A stretch of DNA of 50,105 bases from Ruminococcus sp. (GTDB lineage: Bacteria > Bacillota > Clostridia > Oscillospirales > Ruminococcaceae), in assembly GCA_017542475.1 (NCBI GenBank), contig JAFXXD010000017.1:1-50105 (forward strand), given 5' to 3'. The number at the start of each line of letters is the position of its first letter. Positions within the stretch are counted from its first letter, which is position 1. Position numbers and translations under genes: made by a program. Below are positions 30,602 to 50,081 of the stretch, in pieces. The notes below the pieces were generated by a model. It did not search any database. It saw nothing but the letters and a program-made list of their open reading frames with translations, and was not told where the DNA came from.

Positions 30602-30621
30602 GACGTTGGTCAGAACTCAGC

Positions 30622-30839
30622 TGTAGGGGACGCCGCCCTCGGCGTCCCGTTTCGTATTTTAGGGACGGCGTCCTCGACGTCCCGAGAACATACCGCCAAA
30701 CCAACGGCAACTTTTTGTAGGGGAGCCCTTTGGGCGTCCGCGGATACACGAGGAACGTCGGACGTGCAATGCGCGTCCCTACGATTTGGTTCAGGTGGCT
30801 TGTCGGTATGTTGGCGGGCGGCGGAACGCCGCCCCTACA
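30622..30839. repeat. Cluster of five TGTAGGG-family hairpin repeats
   Basis: Units at 30622-30649, 30661-30684, 30716-30740, 30759-30783 and 30815-30839, filling the gap between the PhoB-type gene and the corA promoter. Stems include GACGCC/GGCGTC, GGGACG/CGTCCC and GGCGGCG/CGCCGCC. Orientation changes within the cluster. Confidence 0.85.
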
Positions 30840-30868
30840 GAGAATTGAAAAAAATCGGGAAAAAGGTA

Positions 30869-30897
30869 TTGTAAACGCGAGCGATATGTGGTATAAT
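30869..30897 (+). promoter_or_regulatory. Promoter of the corA leader
   Basis: TTGTAA (30869-30874), 17-nt spacer, TATAAT (30892-30897) with an extended TGG before the -10. Transcription would begin near 30904, 23 nt before the leader ORF. Confidence 0.75.
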
Positions 30898-30926
30898 ATA
30901 TGTACTTTGATTTTGGAGGTGCATTT

Positions 30927-31016
30927 ATGAGTTCCGACCCTTATGGGAATTGCAACGATTATTCCATACTGCGAAGAGCCGTATACGCGCTTCCGTTTTT
31001 ATGTCCGCACGCCTGA
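30927..31016 (+). CDS. corA leader peptide, 29 residues
   Basis: Small ORF with a strong ribosome site (GGAGGT, 6 nt spacing) between a good promoter and corA. The product begins MSSDPYGNCNDYSIL, continues RRAVYALP and ends FLCPHA; TGA at 31014-31016. Codons for I-L-R contain ATACTGCGAA (30966-30975), an exact copy of the bases before the corA ribosome site. Translation of this ORF could therefore set which RNA hairpin forms downstream. No homology is claimed; the regulatory design is analogous to the mgtL and corL leaders of enterobacteria. Confidence 0.65.
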   Translation: MSSDPYGNCNDYSILRRAVYALPFLCPHA

Positions 31017-31075
31017 TCTCCCGCGTCCGACAGCACGGCAGCAGAGCATCTTCGCAGTAAATACTGCGAAAGGAG
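30966..31075 (+). promoter_or_regulatory. Mutually exclusive hairpin switch in the corA leader
   Basis: Three segments: 1, ATACTGCGAA (30966-30975, inside the leader ORF); 2, TTCGCAGTA (31051-31059); 3, ATACTGCGAA (31061-31070). Segment 2 can pair with 1 or with 3. Segment 3 abuts AGGAG (31071-31075), so pairing 2:3 would occlude the ribosome site region and pairing 1:2 would free it. Ribosome position on the leader would decide. Confidence 0.6.
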
Positions 31076-31102
31076 ATGCGCCCGCAAGGGTGCCGATGCG
31101 AT

Positions 31103-32029
31103 ATGATAAACTACTATAGCTCCGATAACGGCAGGCTCGACCAGATCGACGCGCTCGAGAGCGGCTGCTGGGTATCGGTGATCGACCCGACGCCGCAGGA
31201 GATAAAAATGCTCATCGACGATTTCGGGCTGGACAGCGGCTTCGTGAAGTCGTCGCTCGATGAGGAGGAGTCGTCGCGTATAGAGCGCGAAGACGACCAA
31301 ACCCTCATCATCATTGATACGCCCGTCGCCTCAACCGAGGACGACGAGACAAAGGTGTTCTACACAATGCCTATAGGCATAATCATCACAGAGGAGAACG
31401 TGTTCACTATCTCGCTGCACGCCACGCAGGTCATTGACGAGGCGGTGCGCGGTACGATACGCAACCTCCGCCCCACGTTCAAGACACGCTTTGTATTGCA
31501 GCTCCTGCTGAGGATAGCGGCGCTGTTCCTGTATTACCTGAAGCAGATAGATAAGCTGTCATCGGCTGCCGAGCAGCAGCTCCACGACGCGATGAAGAAC
31601 GAGCTCCTTATGCAGCTGCTTGCGCTGGAGAAGTCCCTCGTATACTTCTCTACCTCGCTGAAAGCCAATGAGGCGACAATCGAGAAGATATTCCGCGGAC
31701 GCGTCATCAAGCTCTACGACGAGGATCAGGACCTGCTCGAGGACGTGCTCATCGAGATGAAGCAGGCGATCGAGATGTCCAGTATCTACACGGGGATCCT
31801 TTCGAGTATGATGGACGGCTTCTCGTCGGTAATATCGAACAATCTGAACATCGTGATGTGGCGCCTGACCATAGTCACCATTTTAATGGAGATACCGAAC
31901 ATCATCTTCGCGCTGTACGGTATCAACACGGTAGACCTTCCGCTGCCGTTCACGTGGTTCCCGATATCGCTGGCGGTATTCCTGACAGCGGTCGCGGCGT
32001 TCGTTCTGCTGAAATGGAAGAAGAAATAG
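31103..32029 (+). CDS. corA: CorA-family divalent cation channel
   Basis: 308-residue magnesium/cobalt channel subunit of the CorA superfamily. Acidic, helical N-terminal domain, long stalk helix, two C-terminal transmembrane segments (NIVMWRLTIVTILMEIPNIIFALYG and FPISLAVFLTAVAAFVLL as two halves) and a KWKKK tail. The pore motif normally YGMN is YGIN here, followed by TVDLPLP instead of the common MPEL loop. The start is uncertain: ATG 31103 is preferred on domain grounds, but its ribosome site is poor, and the ATG at 31076 touches AGGAG. Controlled by a leader ORF and switch (see those entries). Confidence 0.88.
   Translation: MINYYSSDNGRLDQIDALESGCWVSVIDPTPQEIKMLIDDFGLDSGFVKSSLDEEESSRIEREDDQTLIIIDTPVASTEDDETKVFYTMPIGIIITEENVFTISLHATQVIDEAVRGTIRNLRPTFKTRFVLQLLLRIAALFLYYLKQIDKLSSAAEQQLHDAMKNELLMQLLALEKSLVYFSTSLKANEATIEKIFRGRVIKLYDEDQDLLEDVLIEMKQAIEMSSIYTGILSSMMDGFSSVISNNLNIVMWRLTIVTILMEIPNIIFALYGINTVDLPLPFTWFPISLAVFLTAVAAFVLLKWKKK

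Positions 32030-49964: not shown

Positions 49965-50081
<117 letters not shown>

Follow-up and report, generated by a model that had tools for sequence, protein, structure and literature searches.

The corA gene in the 50,105-nt stretch of Ruminococcus sp. DNA analyzed here (the window) is preceded by a leader that is probably a translational attenuator driven by a short leader peptide, in which low Mg2+ would cause ribosomes to drop off or pause at an early Asp-Pro pair and would thereby turn corA on. The comparison of upstream regions of related corA genes showed support for the leader open reading frame (ORF), for the position of its Asp/Glu-Pro pair, for two predicted and mutually exclusive helices in the commonest Ruminococcus layout, and for a predicted hairpin between the corA Shine-Dalgarno (SD) sequence and the start codon.

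Layout of the corA leader in the window

A sequence-only reading of this DNA had described a corA leader with a promoter, a 29-codon ORF with a strong ribosome site, and three segments, ATACTGCGAA, TTCGCAGTA and ATACTGCGAA, that can pair in two ways. The leader is present in the sequence as described; the promoter-like site and the ORF with its ribosome site (GGAGG at 30915-30919) were found, and the three segments were given correctly. The features of the leader, with the evidence used to assign each, are as follows.

30869..30897, + strand: promoter-like site of the sigma-70 type, TTGTAA-17-TATAAT with an extended -10, matching the consensus at 10/12 positions
30915..30921, + strand: SD sequence of the leader ORF, GGAGGTG; GGAGG occurs in most genus leaders
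30927..31016, + strand: leader ORF of 29 codons, MSSDPYGNCNDYSILRRAVYALPFLCPHA, from translation; its N-terminus is conserved before corA
30936..30941, + strand: codons 4-5 (Asp-Pro), the proposed site of ribosome drop-off or pausing, from the conservation of [DE]P at residues 4-5
30967..30977, + strand: segment 1, TACTGCGAAGA, within the ORF, predicted to pair with segment 2 (three-segment score; covariation of the corresponding helix in the commonest layout of the genus)
31016..31021, + strand: anti-SD sequence ATCTCC at the ORF stop, invariant in 10/10 nearest leaders
31049..31059, + strand: segment 2, TCTTCGCAGTA, common to both predicted helices (three-segment score; covariation of the equivalent columns)
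31063..31070, + strand: segment 3, ACTGCGAA, extending into the corA SD (three-segment score; the equivalent helix covaries modestly)
31068..31075, + strand: corA SD sequence, GAAAGGAG; AAGGAG is invariant in 50/50 aligned genus leaders
31078..31093, + strand: predicted hairpin GCGCCC-GCAA-GGGTGC between the corA SD and start codon (p 0.03 in the window)
31103..32029, + strand: corA, a divalent-cation transporter of the CorA family (PF01544 over the cut-off; start codon conserved in relatives)

In the promoter-like site (30869-30897), TG precedes the second hexamer, and a TATAAT-like sequence was similarly placed in relatives as judged by eye. The leader ORF (MSSDPYGN...) stops 86 nt upstream of corA. 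In an alignment with the 10 nearest leaders, the ORF start, the segments and the SD were all kept.

Conservation and spread of the leader peptide

Upstream corA regions were collected from 60 relatives, from the order, the class and other classes of the phylum, and from named records, mostly of Ruminococcus. The genus set comprised the same-genus relatives together with the named-record loci, mostly Ruminococcus; the class-level sample was a part of the matches (30 loci plus 40 regions), and the sample from other classes consisted of 20 regions, one per family, out of 114 genomes with a match. Regions that were duplicates by their last 120 nt, or shorter than 120 nt, were excluded before counting. 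From each region, the best-SD ORF was chosen blind to any peptide motif, to avoid motif-based selection.

Within the genus, a best-SD leader ORF was found in 86/89 distinct regions, and Asp-Pro occupied residues 4-5 in 84 of the 86 and residues 3-4 in the remaining 2. Other genera of the order and class yielded such an ORF in 88/111 distinct regions, 49 of which carried [DE]P at residues 4-5 (43 DP and 6 EP). Mononucleotide shuffles gave [DE]P at these residues in 6/1325 cases, and at every other residue up to 19 the [DE]P count was 2 or fewer in the genus and order/class sets alike. The search for the peptide upstream of orthologous corA genes, proposed with the sequence-only reading, thus found a conserved N-terminus, and the leader spread far beyond Ruminococcus into the order, the class and the other classes sampled.

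For these other classes, 17/20 regions had a leader ORF, with [DE]P at residue 4 in 4 and at residue 3 in 3 (MDGDPGSS, MDGDPSKQ, MEADPKYH, MEGDPGSI, MDDPSQLY, MDDPRLCM and MDDPDADL) and with Asp or Glu as residue 2 in 12 of the 17; acidic starts lacking that proline were also seen (MDSDGDSS and MDDAGGSH). By a hand tally over all families examined, [DE]P fell within residues 2-5 in 26/65 and was absent from these residues in 39/65 (e.g., f30, f48, f49, f58, f62 and f65). Several ORFs missing [DE]P at residues 4-5 nevertheless have acidic or Pro-rich starts, namely MVPERLCG, MVPGRLCS, MDSGPEHS and MECDTGNS (L043, L228, L185 and L198, respectively) and MDTSPLRR, MDSYPSIL, MSPRPEPD and MDSGPSNG (L205, L212, L225 and L256, respectively); these are possible variants of the motif.

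Among 59 motif-selected rows from outside the genus, the acidic residue of the motif swaps between Asp and Glu, with GAC, GAT, GAA and GAG all in use, and the Pro is encoded by CCT, CCG, CCA or CCC. Because Asp swaps to Glu and the codons vary synonymously, the constraint acts on the peptide. The remainder of the peptide is freer: genus leader ORFs range from 10 to 33 codons (except in L113 and the mis-started L075). The widely conserved feature of the peptide is Asp4-Pro5; of those that had been singled out as possible sensors of ribosome stability, the PYG start has its Gly7 conserved only within the genus, and the LPFLCPHA end is variable even in the nearest relatives.

Codon 7 (30945-30947 in the window) is GGG in 80/82 genus rows, the other 2 (L075 and L146) being wrongly started. 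In leaders from outside the genus, residues 7-8 are often encoded by AGT and CGA. Both patterns could reflect slow codons or a constraint on the nucleotides. Two records titled Alistipes (L095 and L108) carry the leader and a Ruminococcus-like corA (81% and 76% identity, respectively), and these titles are probably wrong.

Two predicted, mutually exclusive helices at the corA ribosome-binding site

The three segments offer two pairings, 1:2 or 2:3, the second of which runs into the corA SD; the two helices exclude each other because both use segment 2. For the window leader, the three-segment score was 14.4 against a mean of 8.0 for dinucleotide shuffles, with 0/60 shuffles reaching the observed value. 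The lowest-energy fold contained the 2:3 hairpin enclosed by a further helix in which ATCTCC (31016-31021) pairs with GGAGAT at the SD (31072-31077). As a whole, the leader was not unusually stable on folding (z = -1.65, with 13/200 shuffles as good).

Covariation was assessed in the genus, where 81 leaders were usable after L075, L146 and L113 had been left out for a wrong, merged or overlong ORF. The alignment took the 53 of these 81 leaders that have a length of 80-112 and the commonest layout, reduced to 50 by duplicate removal, and spanned codon 8 to just beyond the corA SD; the resulting counts omit 28 genus leaders of other layouts, the window's clade among them. In these 50 leaders, helix 1:2 was paired in 82% of cells and helix 2:3, which includes a short GCTC-GAGC helix at the SD, in 80.8%. 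Double-changed cells numbered 62 for helix 1:2, as compared to 25.1 +/- 3.7 in shuffled alignments and 5-37 in slid versions, and 29 for helix 2:3, as compared to 10.9 +/- 3.4 and 2-16, respectively; the helices were drawn by eye from the same sequences, which favors them over the slid versions.

Because the aligned leaders are related, events were also counted on a tree of corA coding sequences, covering 46/50 leaders (4 had no coding sequence) and 12 slid controls displaced by 1-6 columns either way. Pairs of helix 1:2 were kept through double change on 17 branches (0-3 in slid controls), and those of helix 2:3 on 6 branches (0-4 in slid controls). On this comparative evidence, the predicted helix 1:2 is well supported and the predicted helix 2:3, in which the SD constrains the 3' side, is modestly supported. 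In the commonest layout of the genus, both show covariation over columns that they share, the outcome of the segment covariation check suggested by the earlier reading, and the mutually exclusive pairings that it had put forward are conserved before orthologous corA genes.

Other measures were less clear. The number of pairs with any double change was not clearly above chance for helix 1:2 (9 vs 7.8, with 99/500 shuffles as high) and not clearly outstanding for helix 2:3 (7 vs 4.3, with 5/500 shuffles as high), and the number of further pair types was equaled in 90/500 and 185/500 shuffles for 1:2 and 2:3, respectively. RNAalifold recovered 4 pairs of helix 2:3 and 0 of helix 1:2, and in an extended helix 1:2 the last two pairs were mostly unpaired. 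A three-segment stem test reached p<=0.05 in 51/81 genus leaders versus 12/55 leaders from outside the genus. A duplex test that was set aside for its design, the segment-3 window having taken in the local segment 2, gave no advantage to the genus, with p<=0.05 for both helices in 9/81 genus leaders and 22/55 others.

The window's own clade has a different, longer layout, in which the segments and the anti-SD sequence are nearly invariant in 10/10 leaders. Such near-invariance fits pairing without proving it; these sequences are too conserved to covary. Equilibrium folding, run once with the ORF masked and once unmasked, left SD accessibility unchanged on balance and so showed no switching: changes greater than 0.3 were upward in 9 and downward in 9 of 84 genus leaders, and upward in 8 and downward in 6 of 59 others.

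A predicted hairpin that may bridge the distance from the Shine-Dalgarno sequence to the start codon

In 69/81 genus leaders, over 14 nt separate the corA SD from the start codon, and in the other 12 the SD is within 14 nt of it. A hairpin was predicted between the SD and the start in all 69 leaders with the wider gap under a lax cut (below -2 kcal/mol), and 57 of the 69 had p<=0.05 against mononucleotide shuffles. The hairpin sequences vary between species, and the distance left outside the hairpin was 5-16 nt in 61 of the 69 leaders; in the window, the hairpin at 31078-31093 would cut the SD-start spacing from 27 nt to an effective 11. On a plain reading of these predictions, the hairpin seems to bring the distant SD to the corA start codon, and the assignment of GAAAGGAG as the corA SD is supported because the hairpin bridges its distance to the start.

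Genomic setting and novelty

A leader pattern searched in 40 genus genomes gave 27 matches in 26 genomes, and the reversed pattern gave 0. For 25 of the 27, the match lay at most 200 nt upstream of a placed CorA gene; corA was unplaced for the other 2 (G511 and G513). The window leader itself was missed by the pattern, being one base of spacing off. The genome from which the window derives has a second gene with a CorA domain (L235, G000:C4:6669-7418) with a short 5' region, in which no acidic-Pro leader was found by eye.

In Bacillota, Mg2+ transporter genes are controlled by Mg2+ through the M-box, which binds Mg2+ directly. The identification of the window leader as an M-box (RF00380) was rejected, as a covariance-model search that gave matches in the controls Bacillus subtilis and Lactococcus lactis found none in the window and none in 30/30 genus genomes. 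The Mg2+ transporter MgtE was present in 4/30 genus genomes. Judging by these 30 genomes, the genus seems to manage Mg2+ import without the riboswitch usual in Bacillota; the leader described here may serve as Mg2+ control of import in Ruminococcus, perhaps beside others, and may thus answer how this genus controls Mg2+ import with the M-box in 0/30 and MgtE in 4/30 genomes.

No Rfam family matched the leader, the search returning only two chance-level matches at E 6.7 and 9.1. Similarly, no report of a Bacillota leader of such a kind was present among the matches listed in open-licence literature, and corA goes unmentioned in the available portions of PMC8632094 and PMC11109978. These outcomes are consistent with the claim, made on first inspection of the sequence, that no equivalent had been described.

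Comparison with known leader peptides

Mg2+ sensing through ribosome destabilization is described, in the available portions of the literature, for a few enterobacterial leaders. In E. coli MgtL, the leader of mgtA, low Mg2+ leads to ribosome drop-off within a peptide starting with EPDP after the initiator (Glu2, Pro3 and Asp4), and mgtA is turned on (PMC11282234). In MgtQ of Salmonella, Asp2 and Glu5 cause translation to abort, and the mgtB ribosome-binding site becomes free as a stem rearranges (PMC8092293). Features in common with both are a short ORF that has its own SD and lies immediately before a Mg2+ transporter gene, and acidic residues and/or prolines in the first codons, represented in the window by Asp4-Pro5 with one acidic residue. 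As with MgtQ, the commonest genus layout has two predicted exclusive folds, one of which closes the ribosome-binding site, an assignment for which two shuffle measures and equilibrium folding were unsupportive.

As described for E. coli and Salmonella, MgtL resembles the corA leader in having an acidic/Pro motif at residues 2-5 with Asp at residue 4, and resembles the proposed corA switch in that leader translation represses and drop-off at low Mg2+ induces. The output differs, being Rho-dependent termination for MgtL, whereas the evident target of the corA leader is the SD; the window peptide, moreover, has Ser2-Ser3 where MgtL, as reported, has Glu2-Pro3. MgtQ, the mgtB leader of Salmonella mgtCBRU, is by its description also a very short ORF that encodes acidic residues early and precedes the gene of a Mg2+ transporter. 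In it, aborted translation, as would be the case for corA, allows an alternative stem to free the ribosome-binding site, and control is translational. Unlike the corA leader, which is a 5' leader with Asp4-Pro5, MgtQ is reported to sit between mgtC and mgtB and to have Asp2 and Glu5. Its target is MgtB, an ATP-using transporter outside the CorA family.

The corA genes of Gammaproteobacteria have leaders of their own. Translation of CorL is reported to be inversely related to corA (PMC11552253), and a corA motif has 325 gammaproteobacterial examples (PMC6429828). These share with the Ruminococcus leader the target gene and, by their descriptions, a leader ORF in front of corA together with two exclusive RNA folds; the same descriptions set them apart by the lack of an acidic-Pro start. 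Additionally, CorL is described as Rho-dependent and as less rich in Pro and acidic residues than MgtL (PMC11552253), and the corA motif is reported, in the available portions of its source, from Gammaproteobacteria and metagenomes only (PMC6429828). On the strength of the shared features, the Ruminococcus leader probably works like MgtL and MgtQ; we claim no membership by descent.

Proposed mechanism and alternative explanations

In the proposed mechanism, ribosomes would initiate on the leader ORF and reach Asp4-Pro5 with a nascent chain only a few residues long. With enough Mg2+, a stable ribosome would translate onward and cover segment 1, upon which segment 2 would pair with segment 3, and helix 2:3 together with the short anti-SD helix would close the corA SD, giving low CorA synthesis. 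When Mg2+ is short, the ribosome would drop off or pause at Asp-Pro, leaving segment 1 free to capture segment 2 in helix 1:2; the corA SD would then lie open and, moved close to the start codon by the small hairpin, would allow corA to be translated. The earlier interpretation, in which translation of the peptide decides whether corA is translated, is thus partly supported, in that the leader ORF and the exclusive pairings are conserved, while the peptide end to which it had also pointed is not.

By analogy with MgtL and MgtQ, Mg2+ or ribosome destabilization would be the signal, drop-off or pausing at Asp-Pro would be the sensing step, and we infer that full translation of the leader corresponds to the OFF state. 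This direction is supported by the overlapping ORFs of leaders L037, L061 and L063, by the analogy, and by the requirement that an importer should rise at low Mg2+. In these three leaders, all of one family, the ORF extends beyond the corA start in another frame, and such overrunning ORFs fit an inhibitory effect of full translation. For 17/84 genus leaders, whose ORF ends 4-20 nt upstream of the corA SD, and for L113, whose ORF ends beyond it, a model in which the ribosome just sits on segment 1 is too simple.

The identity of the signal is the part of the mechanism on which the foremost alternative bears. The same switch could respond to another input, with Asp-Pro reading the state of the translation machinery (EF-P, ABC-F proteins, antibiotics or ribosome health) and Mg2+ acting indirectly or being irrelevant, a reading that we regard as unlikely while giving it some weight. 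Near its start, the Ruminococcus peptide carries a single Pro and a single acidic residue, fewer than MgtL, and with only this one acidic residue it would be a weaker signal than MgtL; in E. coli, DPEE is reported as the minimum for a clear EttA effect (PMC11282234). In B. subtilis, an artificial Asp-Pro repeat is described as stalling ribosomes that lack EF-P, and YfmR overexpression as relieving this stalling (PMC11381351). Against a general translational input, corA is downstream at every placeable match of the leader pattern (25/27), which points to Mg2+ or another divalent metal as the signal, and MgtL and MgtQ, with like residues, are reported to precede Mg2+ transporter genes as well.

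The sign of the effect could also be the reverse, if leader translation opened the corA start and fed ribosomes to it, raising corA when translation is good. ORFs that end 11-15 nt before the corA start in some leaders from outside the genus (L055, L056, L062, L157-L159, L169, L170, L173, L175 and L223) would suit such positive coupling or a coupled reinitiation, but the out-of-frame overlapping ORFs of L037, L061 and L063 cannot couple simply, genus ORFs are free in length (10-33 codons) and mostly stop far from the corA start, and an importer so controlled would fall when Mg2+ is short. We therefore consider positive coupling improbable.

A metal-binding riboswitch with an incidental ORF has very little probability in our assessment. 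A candidate riboswitch has been proposed for gammaproteobacterial corA (PMC6429828, in its available portions), and two alternative helices exist in the predicted structure of the Ruminococcus leader. However, conservation reaches furthest for a peptide motif with Asp/Glu and Pro-codon swaps, not for an RNA core, no Rfam family was matched, and the three-segment layout falls from 51/81 leaders in the genus to 12/55 outside it, whereas the peptide start persists. Least credible of all, and close to negligible, is that MSSDPYGN mirrors an RNA element (a CCC-UUAU-GGG mini-hairpin or pairing elsewhere) instead of a peptide, given that the GGG codon for Gly7, which could suggest it in 80/82 genus rows (the other two wrongly started), is mostly lost outside the genus, where Asp/Glu-Pro is retained with varied codons in the 59 motif-selected rows.

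With attenuation through the leader peptide as the preferred reading, the wider question is whether corA is controlled across Bacillota by a nascent-peptide Mg2+ sensor of the form M-x-x-D/E-P or M-D-D-P, either ancestral or evolved repeatedly, with the peptide kept and the output changing; we judge the chances of this to be about even. If true, the outputs would be exclusive hairpins on the SD in Ruminococcus and ORFs over the corA SD or start in others, and MgtL and MgtQ of enterobacteria would be a local instance of a general bacterial way to read Mg2+ through ribosome stability. Leaders whose like motif occupies the same residues, before corA in 26/65 examined families of another phylum, would make ribosome-based Mg2+ sensing a general principle. 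The interest of the leader is high because of this breadth and the match to the MgtL position, and the comparison supplies many natural variants for testing, including Asp/Glu swaps, DDP and DGDP starts and different outputs.

Additional features of the window

Upstream of the leader, GC-rich palindromic stretches occur at 30620-30850 (e.g., an inverted repeat at 30627-30648) and resemble, by eye, dispersed intergenic repeats. At the window end, a 5S rRNA gene lies on the minus strand at 49965-50081 (Rfam RF00001, 91.9 bits, gathering score).
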